Positions 16,123 through 60,501 of a stretch of DNA of 64,000 nucleotides are shown here, one piece after another. The number at the start of each line of letters is the position of its first letter. The stretch's first letter is position 1. A program made the translations under genes and the position numbers. A model generated the notes under the pieces. That model had not been told where the DNA came from. It did not search any database and was given only the letters and a program-made list of their open reading frames with translations. Source of the DNA: Rhizobium sp. BK196 (lineage in GTDB: Bacteria > Pseudomonadota > Alphaproteobacteria > Rhizobiales > Rhizobiaceae); NCBI RefSeq assembly GCF_014193255.1, contig NZ_JACHZB010000001.1:590018-654017 (forward strand). The letters run 5' to 3'.

Positions 16123-16198
<76 letters not shown>

Positions 16199-47408: not shown

Positions 47409-47680
47409 GGCACACGTTACAGGATTTATTTTGGTGCCCAGGCGAGCGGCGTCGGAGACCTGCGCTTCCGATGGTTCTCCATCTGTCTCGCCAGTCACGC
47501 AGGCGGGCGGACACTAGAACCTTTCAGTTGCCTTGCCTAGCCTCGCAAGCGTCATCGGCAGCACTCCGCCGCGACGCCGCCCGCGGCAACTGCCAGTTAA
47601 CGCTGGCGAATTTTAGCCCTTGCGGAGATTTTCAGTAGGGCCATTTCTATTCATTGTCTTTGATAGAGGTGGAGATTCGA

Positions 47681-55748: not shown

Positions 55749-56321
55749 CTACATGCCCTGCGCGCCGCGGTTCATCGCGGCAATGCCGGTGCGGCAAACT
55801 TCGATGAGGCCGAGCGGCTTCATGATCGCGATGAACTGGTCGATCTTCGAGGACTTGCCGGTGATCTCCAGAATGAAGTGGTCGACCGTCGCATCCACCA
55901 CCTTGGCGTGAAAGGCATCGGCCAGGCGCAGCGTTTCGGCACGCGTCTCGCCGTTGCCGATCACCTTGAGCAGTGCCACTTCTCGCTCGATCGGCCGGTC
56001 CTGGCCGAGTTCGCGGGCACGCACCGTCAGGTCCACGACGCGATGGACGGGCACGATGCGTTCGAGCTGCGCCTTGATCTGCTCCAGCACCTGCGGCGTG
56101 CCGCGGGTAACGACGGTAATGCGCGACAGGTGCGCCGCATGCTCCGTCTCCGAAACCGTGAGGCTTTCGATATTGTAGCCGCGGCCGGAAAACAGGCCGA
56201 TGACGCGGGCGAGCACGCCCGGCTCGTTATCGACGAGCACCGAGAGCGTATGGCTCTCGACGGCTGCCGTTTCCGGCGAGATGAAGTAGGCGGAGCCGGT
56301 CGGTTGAAGGTGTGCGTTCAT
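55749..56321 (-). CDS. ilvH: Acetolactate synthase small (regulatory) subunit
   Basis: 190 residues, normal length. ACT domain at about 24-95 (SHTLSVLVDNEPGVLARVIGLFSGRGYNIESL, read in parts), where valine binds for feedback inhibition, then the C-terminal ALS_ss_C domain. Activates the catalytic subunit encoded 24 bases upstream. Cotranscribed with ilvI and thus under the same leader attenuator. Confidence 0.95.
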   Translation of the reverse strand: MNAHLQPTGSAYFISPETAAVESHTLSVLVDNEPGVLARVIGLFSGRGYNIESLTVSETEHAAHLSRITVVTRGTPQVLEQIKAQLERIVPVHRVVDLTVRARELGQDRPIEREVALLKVIGNGETRAETLRLADAFHAKVVDATVDHFILEITGKSSKIDQFIAIMKPLGLIEVCRTGIAAMNRGAQGM

Positions 56322-56345: not shown

Positions 56346-58139
56346 TTATACTAGCTGACGGCCCTTGGCGTCGATCGCGTTGGCGACCGCTTCGTCCGTG
56401 GCTTCGTCCGGCAGCAGCATTTCGTTATGGGCCTTGCCCGAGGGGATCATCGGGAAGCAGTTGGCGAGATTGGCGACGCGGCAATCGAAGATGACTGGCT
56501 TCTTGACGTCGATCATCTCCTGGATGGTTGCGTCGAGATCGTCGGGCTTCTCGCAGCGCAGGCCGACCGCACCATAGGCTTCGGCCAGCTTCACGAAATC
56601 GGGCATCGCCTCCGTATAGGAGTTGGACAGGCGGTTGCCGTGCAGGAGCTGCTGCCACTGGCGCACCATGCCCATGTACTGGTTGTTCATGATGAAGATC
56701 TTGATCGGCGCATTGTGCTGGATCGCCGCCGACATTTCCTGGATGCACATCTGGATCGAGGCATCGCCGGCAATATCGATGACGAGGCTTTCCGGATGGG
56801 CGATCTGTACGCCGAGCGCTGCCGGCAGGCCGTAACCCATCGTTCCCAGGCCGCCCGAAGTCATCCAGCGGTTCGGCTGTTCGAAGCCGAAGAATTGCGC
56901 CGCCCACATCTGGTGCTGGCCGACTTCCGTCGTGATGTAGGTGTCGCGATCCTTTGTCAGGGCGAAGAGACGCTCCAGCGCATATTGCGGCATGATCACG
57001 TCGTTGCTCTTCGTGTAGGCGAAGGAATTGCGCGCGCGCCAGCGGGCGATATCGCCCCACCATGCATCGAGACGGCTCTTTTCCGGCTTCTTCGGCAGCG
57101 CTCGCCACAGGCGAATCATATCTTCCAGGATATGGCCGACATCGCCGCGGATGCCGAGATCGACGCGAACGTTCTTGTTGATCGAGGACGGGTCGATATC
57201 GATATGGATCTTCTTGGAATTCGGCGAGAAGGCGTTGAGGCGGCCCGTGATGCGGTCGTCGAAGCGGGCGCCGATGCAGACCATGACGTCGCAATCATGC
57301 ATCGCCATGTTGGCCTCGTAGGAGCCGTGCATGCCGAGCATCTTCAGCCAGTTCTTGCCGGATGCCGGATAGGCGCCGAGACCCATCAGCGTCGAGGTGA
57401 TCGGGAAATCTGTCAGTTCGACCAGCTCGCGCAACATGCGGGAAGCTTCCGGACCGGAATTGATGACGCCACCACCCGTATAGAAGATCGGCCGGCGGGC
57501 ATTCGCCATCATTTCGATTGCCGCATGGATCTGGTTCAGGTCGCCCTGGATCTTCGGCTGGTAGCTCTTCTGGATCGCGTGATCGGCCGGCGGCGTGTAG
57601 GTGCCGGTGGCGAACTGAACGTCCTTCGGAATATCGACGACGACGGGGCCAGGACGGCCGGACTGCGCAATCCGGAAGGCTTCATGGATGACGGCGGCGA
57701 GCTCGTTGACATCCTTGACCAGCCAGTTGTGCTTGGTGCAGGGGCGCGTGATACCGACGGTGTCGCATTCCTGGAAGGCGTCGGAACCGATGAGCGAGGT
57801 CGGAACCTGGCCCGTCAGGCAGACGAGCGGAATGGAATCCATCAGCGCATCCTGCAGCGGCGTGACCGCATTGGTGGCACCGGGACCAGAGGTCACCAGC
57901 ATGACGCCGACCTTGCCGGTCGAGCGGGCATAACCTTCGGCCGCATGGCCGGCCCCCTGCTCATGGCGAACGAGGATGTGCTTGACGTCTTCCTGCTGGA
58001 AGATCTCGTCATAGATCGGCAGAACAGCGCCGCCGGGATAGCCGAAGATGTGCTCGACGCCATTATCCTTCAGAGCACGCAGAACGATTTCCGCTCCCGT
58101 CATCCGATTGCTGTCCGTTTGATTGTCCGTGCTCGCCAT
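56346..58139 (-). CDS. ilvI: Acetolactate synthase large (catalytic) subunit
   Basis: 597 residues. N-terminal TPP-binding domain with the catalytic Glu in VRHEQGAGHAAEGYAR, the FAD-binding middle domain, and C-terminal TPP motif GDASIQMCIQEMSAA ending at NN (PIKIFIMNN). Condenses two pyruvates, or pyruvate with 2-oxobutyrate, in the first committed step of Val/Leu/Ile synthesis. First structural gene after the attenuator; may equally be named ilvB. Confidence 0.96.
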   Translation of the reverse strand: MASTDNQTDSNRMTGAEIVLRALKDNGVEHIFGYPGGAVLPIYDEIFQQEDVKHILVRHEQGAGHAAEGYARSTGKVGVMLVTSGPGATNAVTPLQDALMDSIPLVCLTGQVPTSLIGSDAFQECDTVGITRPCTKHNWLVKDVNELAAVIHEAFRIAQSGRPGPVVVDIPKDVQFATGTYTPPADHAIQKSYQPKIQGDLNQIHAAIEMMANARRPIFYTGGGVINSGPEASRMLRELVELTDFPITSTLMGLGAYPASGKNWLKMLGMHGSYEANMAMHDCDVMVCIGARFDDRITGRLNAFSPNSKKIHIDIDPSSINKNVRVDLGIRGDVGHILEDMIRLWRALPKKPEKSRLDAWWGDIARWRARNSFAYTKSNDVIMPQYALERLFALTKDRDTYITTEVGQHQMWAAQFFGFEQPNRWMTSGGLGTMGYGLPAALGVQIAHPESLVIDIAGDASIQMCIQEMSAAIQHNAPIKIFIMNNQYMGMVRQWQQLLHGNRLSNSYTEAMPDFVKLAEAYGAVGLRCEKPDDLDATIQEMIDVKKPVIFDCRVANLANCFPMIPSGKAHNEMLLPDEATDEAVANAIDAKGRQLV

Positions 58140-58201
58140 GTGTCTGTTCCGTTTGATGCTGGGGATTTGAGTTTGTGGCCGGAAGCCCTGATTTCGGGCA
58201 T

Positions 58202-58225
58202 AAAAAAAGGCCCCTGAGGAGCCTT
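58202..58225 (-). terminator. Attenuator terminator of ilvIH
   Basis: Minus strand: AAGGCTCC-TCA-GGGGCCTT followed by seven T, 63 bases upstream of the ilvI start codon and 33 bases after the leader peptide stop. An intrinsic terminator placed before the first gene fits transcription attenuation. Confidence 0.85.
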
Positions 58226-58230
58226 CGTCT

Positions 58231-58280
58231 AGCGCATGGGTGGCTATCGCCGGATGGTTACACCATCCTGCCCATGCGCT
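58231..58280 (-). promoter_or_regulatory. Attenuator pause/antiterminator hairpin region
   Basis: AGCGCATGGG (58271-58280 strand-complemented) and CCCATGCGCT pair perfectly over 10 bases, enclosing a nested GGATGGT / ACCATCC stem. The outer arm lies inside the leader peptide codons, so a ribosome stalled on the Val/Leu/Ile codons would change the pairing. The exact antiterminator pairing was not resolved. Confidence 0.7.
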
Positions 58281-58314
58281 TTCCCACCACGATAAGAACG
58301 TTCGAAATTGTCAT
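58258..58314 (-). CDS. ilvIH leader peptide
   Basis: 18 codons: MTISNVLIVVGKRMGRMV then TAA. Seven of the eighteen residues are Val, Leu or Ile, with five of them in a row (VLIVV). No Shine-Dalgarno sequence precedes the ATG; the predicted -10 box ends only eight bases upstream, so the transcript probably begins at or next to the ATG. Too short for standard gene callers. Functions as a charge sensor for branched-chain tRNAs. Confidence 0.8.
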   Translation of the reverse strand: MTISNVLIVVGKRMGRMV

Positions 58315-58322
58315 GGGCGGAA

Positions 58323-58351
58323 GTGATAGACAGAAAATTTCGCAGCGTCAA
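58323..58351 (-). promoter_or_regulatory. Promoter of the ilvIH operon
   Basis: Minus strand TTGACG (58346-58351), a 17-base spacer and TATCAC (58323-58328). Predicted transcription start falls at or within two bases of the leader peptide ATG at 58314. Confidence 0.7.
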
Positions 58352-58470
58352 CGCATTCCGCAATAAAAATTCCAACGGCTCAGGCAACATGCCGCACCGT
58401 CCAAATCTGGGGCTGAAGGATTTGTTAAAGGATCAGTCATATCCTGCACTTTAATGCAGGGAGTAACCCT

Positions 58471-60501
58471 TTGCTCGATAGCGACATGGGAACGTCCAGC
58501 CGGGCGGGCGAACAGGATCGTCGTGACACTCTGACCCCGGGAAACCGCTTTCTCGGGCGTGTCGTTGCATGCAGCGGATCGCGCGCAACCATTGCAGCCG
58601 TGGCAGAAGCCGGCGGCACCGATCTCACGGAATTGTGGTCCGTCGGCCGGCTGATTTCCATCAGCGTCGGCAGGAACCGCGTCGTCGCCCTCGTCTTCTC
58701 CATGAATACCGGCAACCAGGGCTGGGGCGAAGGTCAGGACAATATCTTCCGCATCGAGACCGAACTGCTTGGCGAGGTCCGCGTCGATGAAGACGGCCGC
58801 GAGGAATTCTCCACCGGCATTTCGCGCTATCCTTATCTCGGCGCCATCGCCCATCGCATCCGCGCCGCCGACCTGATGCGCATCTATGATGCCGGCAAGG
58901 GCGCCACCGCCGTCATCGGCAGCCTGACGCAGGATGAAAGCATCGACGCGGCGATCCACGTCCCCTCGATGCTGTCGAAGCATTTCGCTGTGGTCGGCTC
59001 CACCGGCGTCGGTAAATCGACCGCCGTCTCGCTGCTCTTGCATAAGGCGATCGAGGCCGATCCGAAGCTGCGCGTGCTGATCCTCGATCCGCACAATGAA
59101 TTTGCCGCCGCCTTCCCGCAACACGCTGTCACCATCGATACGGATACGCTCGATCTGCCCTTCTGGCTGATGCGGCTCGAAGAATTCGCCGAGGTCGTCT
59201 TCCGCGGCCGCCCGCCGGTGCCGGAAGAGCTCGACATGCTGCGCGATATCCTGCCGGAGGCCAAGCGCGCCTTCCGCGGCAGCGACAGTTCGCTGGTGCG
59301 CCGCCAGACGGAAAAGAGCTCGATAACGGCGGATACGCCGGTACCTTACCGCATCGCCGATCTGCTCGCCCTCATCGACGAGCGCATCGGCAGGCTGGAG
59401 GGCCGCGCCGAAAAACCGTTCCTGCGCTCCTTGAAGATGCGCATCATCGCCGCGATCAATGACCCGCGCTATCACTTCATGTTCTCCAGCAATACGATCA
59501 GCGACACGATCACGGATACCATCGCGCAGATCTTCCGCATCCCCGGCGACAACAAGCCGATCTGCACGTTCCAGCTTGCCGGCATACCCTCGGAGGTCGT
59601 CAATTCCGTCGCCTCGGTGCTCTGCCGCATGGCCTTCGAAATCGCGCTGTGGAGCGAAGGCGCCATCCATATGCTGGTCGTCTGCGAGGAAGCGCACCGC
59701 TACATACCCTCAGACCCGACCTTAGGCTTCGTGCCGACGCGGCAGGCGATCGCCCGTATCGCCAAGGAAGGCCGCAAATACGGCGTTTCGCTCGGCATCA
59801 TCACGCAGCGCCCTGGTGAACTCGACCAGACGATCCTCTCACAGTGCTCGACGCTCTTTGCGATGCGCCTTGCCAATGACCGCGACCAGGAAATCATCCG
59901 CTCGGCCATTCCCAATTCCTCGATCTCGACGACGAGCTTCATCTCCTCGATCGGCAATGGAGAAGCGATCGCCTTCGGCGAAGCGATCCGCGTACCGATG
60001 CGCATGCGCTTCCTGCGCGTCGATGAAAGCCTGCTGCCGAAGGCCCACAGCGCCACCAGCAAACATGCCGAGGAAGATCCCGATACGGTCGACCTGCGCC
60101 GCATCGTTACCCGCATGCGGGCGATCACAGCAGGCCCCGATATCTCCACCTTCCAGCAGAGCTACAGTGCAGCGATGGCAGACAGTTACGAGCCGGAAGA
60201 CGACTTCGCCGATGAAGCCGCCGATCAACCCTATGCCGCTCCATCGGCAGAGGCGCCGCTCGAACCCTATCGCCCCGCCCTGCTGCCGCAGAGCCGCGCG
60301 CCGCATCCTGAGCCCCCGCCGCTCTCGCCGCAGACCTCCATCGACGCGCGCCTGGAAGCACTGCGCCGCGAAATGCGCCGCGACGAGCAGCCAAAGCCGG
60401 CCTTCGGCGAACAGACGTCCCCGCCACGCCGCGAGGGCGGCATGTCGCTGCGCGATAGCATCCTGAAGAAGCCGCTGAGCAGCCTCTACAATAAGGACTG
60501 A
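58471..60501 (+). CDS. herA: HerA-type ATP-binding helicase (DUF87)
   Basis: 676 residues starting at TTG 58471 with GGGAG upstream; ATG 58486 is the alternative. HAS-barrel-like N-terminus (LTPGNRFLGRVVACSGSRATI, split), Walker A GSTGVGKST (about 176-184), Walker B MLVVCEEAHRY (about 402), arginine-finger region IARIAKEGRKYGVSLGII. The C-terminal 120 residues are Pro-rich and probably unstructured. HerA hexamers translocate DNA and usually pair with the NurA nuclease in end resection; no nurA is nearby here. DNA repair or plasmid/phage defence are both possible roles. Confidence 0.85.
   Translation: MLDSDMGTSSRAGEQDRRDTLTPGNRFLGRVVACSGSRATIAAVAEAGGTDLTELWSVGRLISISVGRNRVVALVFSMNTGNQGWGEGQDNIFRIETELLGEVRVDEDGREEFSTGISRYPYLGAIAHRIRAADLMRIYDAGKGATAVIGSLTQDESIDAAIHVPSMLSKHFAVVGSTGVGKSTAVSLLLHKAIEADPKLRVLILDPHNEFAAAFPQHAVTIDTDTLDLPFWLMRLEEFAEVVFRGRPPVPEELDMLRDILPEAKRAFRGSDSSLVRRQTEKSSITADTPVPYRIADLLALIDERIGRLEGRAEKPFLRSLKMRIIAAINDPRYHFMFSSNTISDTITDTIAQIFRIPGDNKPICTFQLAGIPSEVVNSVASVLCRMAFEIALWSEGAIHMLVVCEEAHRYIPSDPTLGFVPTRQAIARIAKEGRKYGVSLGIITQRPGELDQTILSQCSTLFAMRLANDRDQEIIRSAIPNSSISTTSFISSIGNGEAIAFGEAIRVPMRMRFLRVDESLLPKAHSATSKHAEEDPDTVDLRRIVTRMRAITAGPDISTFQQSYSAAMADSYEPEDDFADEAADQPYAAPSAEAPLEPYRPALLPQSRAPHPEPPPLSPQTSIDARLEALRREMRRDEQPKPAFGEQTSPPRREGGMSLRDSILKKPLSSLYNKD

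Follow-up and report, generated by a model that had tools for sequence, protein, structure and literature searches.

The ilvIH genes of Caulobacter, an alphaproteobacterium, are described in an excerpt of PMC4117421 as attenuated through a leader coding sequence (ilvL). For Sinorhizobium meliloti, an 'ilvIH cis regulatory' element is listed in Table 3 of Valverde 2008 (PMC2573895), where it is credited to Vitreschak 2004. Within the same order a leaderless leader peptide is described for the rhizobial trpL leader (rnTrpL), and according to the consulted part of that article the trpL RNA of S. meliloti starts at its ATG (PMC7298713). Leaderless leaders of branched-chain genes are described in excerpts of PMC11857589 and PMC8079986 for another phylum: the 5′ end of the ilvBNC RNA of Corynebacterium glutamicum lies one nucleotide away from the leader AUG, and ilvL of Streptomyces lividans is described as transcribed leaderless. 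As a separate observation, the peptides of Streptomyces ilvL, as given in an excerpt of PMC8079986, and of the f1/g18 leaders such as L180, MRTRILVLGKRVG and MKTALILVGKRVGKAV, look similar across phyla.

Here we analyze the leader of the ilvIH genes of Rhizobium sp. BK196 in a stretch of DNA of 64,000 nt, referred to below as the window. The leader lies in the same place before the same gene as the attenuator predicted in S. meliloti (excerpt of PMC2573895), and its RNA is the same as Atu_C8 (Rfam RF02502), a Rhizobiales sRNA. Two differences in reading should be stated at the outset. The S. meliloti entry, in the part of the paper that contains it, does not discuss the start mode, unlike the leaderless reading given here; and Rfam places Atu_C8 among the sRNA genes, whereas we read it as the terminated ilvIH leader carrying a leaderless peptide. 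The listing of Valverde 2008 together with the description in Caulobacter means that attenuation at this place was already predicted, and the RNA was already a listed sRNA family. The claim of an ilvIH attenuator in the original prediction is supported by our data and had, in the consulted part of PMC2573895, already been printed as a prediction. The leaderless form of an ilv leader, which had been put forward as the point of interest, loses some of its novelty because leaderless ilv leaders have already been described in actinobacteria.

Results

Organization of the ilvIH leader

Direct reading of the minus strand showed that the predicted order of promoter, ATG, peptide, hairpin and terminator was accurate (Table 1). 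A short ORF with a run of codons for end products precedes the biosynthetic operon ilvIH, and an intrinsic terminator is located between this ORF and ilvI; both are features of an attenuator.

Table 1. Features of the ilvIH leader region; coordinates are positions within the 64,000-nt window.
Feature	Position	Strand	Details
-35 element TTGACG	58346..58351	(-)	read from sequence
-10 element TATCAC	58323..58328	(-)	17-nt spacer; 8 nt 5′ of ATG
Leader ORF, 18 codons, MTISNVLIVVGKRMGRMV + stop	58258..58314	(-)	ATG = 58314-58312
Control codons Val-Leu-Ile-Val-Val (GTT CTT ATC GTG GTG)	58285..58299	(-)	five branched-chain codons, unbroken run
Hairpin P1, 5′ arm AGCGCATGGG	58271..58280	(-)	fold
Inner hairpin GGATGGTGTAACCATCC	58252..58268	(-)	leader stop TAA in and beside loop; fold and alignment
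Hairpin P1, 3′ arm CCCATGCGCT	58231..58240	(-)	fold and alignment
Intrinsic terminator, 7 T	58202..58226	(-)	fold, terminator scan, covariation
Rfam RF02502 Atu_C8 match	58192..58312	(-)	terminated attenuator RNA
ilvI, acetolactate (acetohydroxyacid) synthase large subunit	56346..58139	(-)	NF006581, 1230.1 bits, cut-off 974
ilvH, acetolactate synthase small subunit	55749..56321	(-)	NF008864, 221.6 bits, cut-off 119

Folding of the RNA from 58314 to 58202 gave -48.8 kcal/mol (z = -4.18), and none of 200 dinucleotide shuffles was that low. The fold contained the predicted 10-bp hairpin, P1, whose helix overlaps the end of the peptide, and, just ahead of the U run of the 7-T terminator, a terminator helix of 9 bp; the terminator scan picked the same site. 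The match to Atu_C8 spans the whole model and scored 122.1 bits against a gathering score of 50 (E 1.4e-26). The suggestion that a small RNA may be released from the leader agrees with this match of the terminated RNA to an sRNA family.

Elsewhere on the minus strand of the window there are a ZMP/ZTP riboswitch at 47429-47508 (54.9 bits), which overlaps the start listed for an ORF of 463 aa named folC-like by eye, and a tRNA gene at 16126-16198, detected in the Rfam scan.

Control codons and conserved structure

A covariance model, R1, was built in this analysis for searches across the order and the class. Within the order at least 193 of 297 genomes had a match. Of 240 genomes sampled from the class it matched 4, among them the window genome and a further member of the order; in the excerpt cited above, the Caulobacter ilvIH leader is described as an attenuator as well. 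Among the R1 matches listed, 89 loci were chosen to cover families. For a start codon to be accepted, residues 3-13 of its ORF had to include three or more V, L or I; preference was given to ATG and to the start lying farthest upstream, and all 89 loci passed. One leader, L244, was re-read by hand with an inner ATG, which changed its distance from TTGAC from 39 to 63 nt.

The register of the codons was counted in the 78 of these 89 leaders that were present in alignment A2, the other 11 being absent from it. Counted from the first G-C pair of P1, the longest Val/Leu/Ile run stops 5 nt short of P1 in 68 leaders, 2 nt short in nine and 14 nt short in one. In 78/78 leaders the two codons that end 8 and 5 nt ahead of P1 encode V, L or I, and the frame of the ORF relative to P1 is identical in all 78 across the order. 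The hairpin is thus in register with the control codons, another feature of an attenuator, and the peptide has kept the branched-chain codons whose loss in related genomes had been named as evidence against the prediction.

The structure itself is also conserved. Nine pairs of P1 were counted in 96 distinct sequences; six of them have both sides changed, and 99.1% of cells are paired. In the terminator both sides have changed in 6 of 8 pairs. For the whole structure 352 both-side-changed cells were found in the 96 sequences versus 116 in shuffles, with 0/500 shuffles that high, in an alignment that was fitted to the tested structure and is hence biased in its favour.

Promoter and probable leaderless start in close copies

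Close copies of the leader were collected among the matches listed: 26 loci and 118 copies from an exact DNA pattern scan (144 in total, some genomes being represented in both collections). The pattern took in the final codons of the peptide and some of P1 but not the promoter, the start ATG or the Val/Leu/Ile run. An ATG was found 51, 54 or 57 nt 5′ of the stop in every copy. The comparison of this spacer in relatives, which the original prediction had proposed, placed TTGAC 35-37 nt from the ATG in 143/144 copies (35 nt in one, 36 in 23 and 37 in 119), and the one copy outside this range is a locus that was cut short. When only distinct upstream sequences were considered, TTGAC was located 36-38 nt before the ATG in 116/117. 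A -10-like hexamer following a 17-nt spacer leaves a gap to the ATG of 8 nt in 117/143 close copies and of 7 nt in 22. The ATG is preceded by C at -1 in 97% and at -2 in 89% of the 117 distinct sequences, and C at -1 would make the A of the ATG the natural first base of the RNA.

The window leader has an AUG start without a Shine-Dalgarno sequence, as a leaderless message does. Across 143 close copies, the best anti-Shine-Dalgarno duplex that can form 5′ of the leader ATG has a median energy of 0.6 kcal/mol, in agreement with the predicted lack of such a site. The trpE leader of the same genome, MKKSLNIAVWWWAR (L170), reads TTGCGC-17-TAACAA-8-ATG: its spacer and its gap are identical to those of the ilvIH leader, and the two share CGCCC directly before the ATG. 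The Rfam model of Atu_C8 begins at the G of the ATG which, if taken literally, would place the 5′ end of the RNA two bases inside the ATG codon. Overall, a leaderless start of the ilvIH leader peptide, as originally predicted, is well supported by the comparison of sequences across relatives.

Two probable start modes across the order

A TTGAC within 75 nt of the start was present in 78 of the 89 order-wide leaders, and the 11 leaders without it were left unclassed. The distances form two groups, a short one of 36-38 nt (23 leaders) and a long one of 53-74 nt (55 leaders), and no leader falls in the interval that separates them. Such an empty stretch is what two separate start mechanisms predict. 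The median anti-Shine-Dalgarno energy was 0.0 kcal/mol in the short-distance and -5.8 kcal/mol in the long-distance group (Mann-Whitney p = 9.6e-12 for 23 versus 54 leaders, with relatedness uncorrected), and energies of -3 or lower were found in 1/23 and 49/54 leaders, respectively. All 23 short-distance leaders start with ATG; GTG is used in 9/55 long-distance leaders.

These observations bear on the reading of the promoter. A simple sigma-70 scan of 58150-58500 detected no promoter because TATCAC lacks the T at position 6 which the scan demands, so that the promoter call rests on conservation instead. The negative scan would also fit an attenuator with a normal, longer 5′ leader, transcribed from an unrecognised promoter upstream and bound by ribosomes without a strong Shine-Dalgarno sequence. 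However, the -35/-10 pair is nearly fixed relative to the ATG in 143/144 close copies, the CC before the ATG is conserved at the frequencies given above, no distance between 38 and 53 nt occurs in the 78 classed leaders, and relatives with longer distances mostly do have sequences resembling a Shine-Dalgarno site. A longer 5′ leader of this kind is consequently improbable, and we retain the leaderless start.

Families f1, to which the window belongs, f23 and f28 had short-distance leaders only, and f16 had both. Family f6 has long-distance leaders, with an IlvI match downstream in the five checked of seven, and also two short-distance leaders, both of which precede MFS genes. An IlvI tree of 64 rows was midpoint-rooted, with 5/64 rows lacking an assigned start mode; four of 68 candidate loci (L057, L178, L186 and L260) were left out of it owing to a short or missing IlvI match. 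On this tree the leaderless state needs five changes, at least three of which are forced by well supported branches, and one single change of start mode was rejected on that basis. Relatives appear, as judged from sequence comparison, to have switched repeatedly between a leaderless and a Shine-Dalgarno start.

Folding tests for an antiterminator

The trpL leader differs from the ilv leader in having Trp codons and a predicted antiterminator, and it served as a control. Transcripts ending before the 3′ arm of the terminator were folded with the stretch occupied by the ribosome masked, and the results were compared with a shuffled control. For the trp leader L170, upstream pairing of the terminator 5′ arm was 1.00 with the ribosome stalled at Trp1 or Trp2 (shuffled 0.55 and 0.54), 0.69 at Trp3 (shuffled 0.56) and 0.06 at the stop (shuffled 0.40). 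A classical antiterminator is thus predicted for this leader by the folding model. The same test applied to the window ilv leader found no antiterminator: upstream pairing was 0.31 and 0.38 in the stalled states versus 0.55 and 0.52 in the shuffled control, and 0.23 versus 0.45 with the ribosome at the stop.

Masked folding covered the leader RNA of the window, 116 distinct close copies and 97 diverse sequences. In the 97 diverse ilv sequences the mean upstream pairing was 0.55 versus 0.59 for shuffled sequences, and 44% of them exceeded their own control. An apparent antiterminator was seen in this set when pairing rose from 0.12 with the mask extending to the start of P1 to 0.57 with the mask extending 9 nt into P1. 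This candidate was rejected because pairing was 0.36 without any mask and because the shuffled value was 0.59 against the 0.55 observed. In equilibrium folds of the full-length RNA the terminator probability of the ilv leaders averaged 0.85-0.88 in all masked states. It was 0.98 in every state of the trp control, and since the control is flat too, the flat ilv values are no evidence.

The covariation scan of the close copies revealed only options of 4 bp or fewer between the P1 region and the terminator, besides one covarying pair at alignment columns 75-97 and another at 75-108, both isolated. In the diverse set, no alternative helix between P1 and the terminator stood out. This leaves two options, an ilv exchange helix that is kinetic or pseudoknotted, or a different mode of action of P1. 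The influence of P1 on the terminator is the weakest step of the attenuation model.

These results raise a non-classical variant of the same ribosome-gated explanation, in which P1 and the inner hairpin would act directly on the polymerase or the terminator and no antiterminator helix would compete: a ribosome finishing the peptide would melt P1 because the stop codon lies inside it, and one stalled on the Val/Leu/Ile run would leave the upper part of P1 intact. The truncated-transcript test, which shows an antiterminator for trp and none for ilv, points in this direction, as do the average over the 97 aligned sequences and the lack of an alternative P1-terminator helix longer than 4 bp in the close copies or of one standing out in the diverse set. 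The flat full-length fold of ilv cannot be added to this list, being equally flat for the trp control (0.98). We consider direct action of P1 a possible form of the attenuator, to be held tentatively.

Copies of the leader before other genes

An IlvI homologue follows 130/144 close copies. In the 14 copies without an IlvI match, a similar MFS frame, recognised by eye, was present in 11, one case was unclear and two loci were cut short. The window genome carries a second copy of the leader (G000:C1:463004-463126, minus strand; L002, L301). The gene after L002 encodes a 622-aa homologue of the acetolactate synthase large subunit (72% identity across 476 residues). Inspection by eye showed no recognisable gene for a small subunit next to it, and the homologue is apparently an orphan.

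Nineteen second copies were fetched from relatives in the genus; 13 precede an MFS transporter gene and six a synthase homologue. In each of the 19 the distance from TTGAC to an ATG is 36-38 nt; one of these second copies, L157, offers two candidate ATGs, at 31 and 37 nt. Copies preceding MFS genes are L150, L151, L152, L154-L158, L164-L168, L178, L186 and L260. The last three, whose downstream genes were assigned to MFS by sequence likeness, come from f6 and from one genome of another order, and each has the ATG at 36 nt. One of the attenuated transporters scored 151 bits with MFS_1 and 173 bits with the Bcr/CflA efflux model, the latter below its cut-off of 201. The attenuator thus seems to have been copied ahead of a second synthase gene and of a putative efflux-type MFS gene.

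The presence of copies before genes other than ilv is also what might be expected if Atu_C8 were chiefly an independent sRNA acting in trans, with an incidental ORF and with ilvIH driven from elsewhere. The filing of Atu_C8 as an sRNA in Rfam and the failure of the folding tests to find an antiterminator are compatible with such a role. Against it stand the conservation, in 78/78 leaders, of both the reading frame of the ORF and the Val/Leu/Ile codons ahead of P1, and the IlvI homologue downstream of 130/144 close copies. We regard this alternative as very improbable.

Discussion

We consider it highly probable that the RNA upstream of ilvIH is a ribosome-sensing transcription attenuator whose peptide has a leaderless start. 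Transcription would most likely begin at the A of the leader ATG and, if so, the ribosome must initiate on a leaderless AUG. It would then translate the 18-codon peptide, in which the Val/Leu/Ile run is seen to end 5 nt before P1. With this geometry a ribosome halted on the run should occupy no more of P1 than its base; a ribosome that has reached the stop codon should open P1. When charged tRNA is ample, the ribosome would reach the stop inside P1, transcription would terminate and the Atu_C8 RNA would be released. When Val, Leu or Ile tRNAs are short, the ribosome would halt on the run, a step proposed from the geometry and from known attenuators; P1 would then be in a different state and the polymerase would enter ilvIH.

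A broader reading is that the element is a portable, leaderless branched-chain switch which works without an antiterminator helix, with P1 acting directly on termination, which has undergone at least three switches of start mode and which has been copied before other genes. P1 would in that case be melted by a ribosome reaching the stop and largely spared by one stalled before it. Taken as a whole this combination is unlikely. These other genes would be that of a second, apparently orphan acetohydroxyacid synthase, as a reserve target enzyme, and that of a Bcr/CflA-like efflux transporter. Their pairing would suggest, as a speculation, that the copies sense when natural inhibitors block branched-chain synthesis.

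What looks new, as compared with published work, is that the start mode seems to have changed back or forth more than once. In the consulted parts of open PubMed Central texts we found no report of start-mode switching, of the lack of a detectable antiterminator or of copies before other genes. No paper related to Atu_C8 and none on an MFS gene under such an attenuator was found in open PubMed Central. Words starting with 'ilv' are absent from the main texts of PMC10117765, PMC3738593, PMC10469942, PMC3616915, PMC7143759, PMC7298713, PMC3927594 and PMC2881028.

Overall, the comparison of sequences describes a real and conserved attenuator that was known in outline, and it provides good comparative evidence for a leaderless start. 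A single conserved RNA switch occurring with two start modes constitutes a natural series, in which the effect of start mode on attenuation could be compared with much else equal. The sRNA Atu_C8 is tied to a likely function in cis, and the question is raised whether every amino-acid attenuator must have an antiterminator. The switch located before an efflux-type transporter gene would, in addition, link the sensing of amino acids to export.
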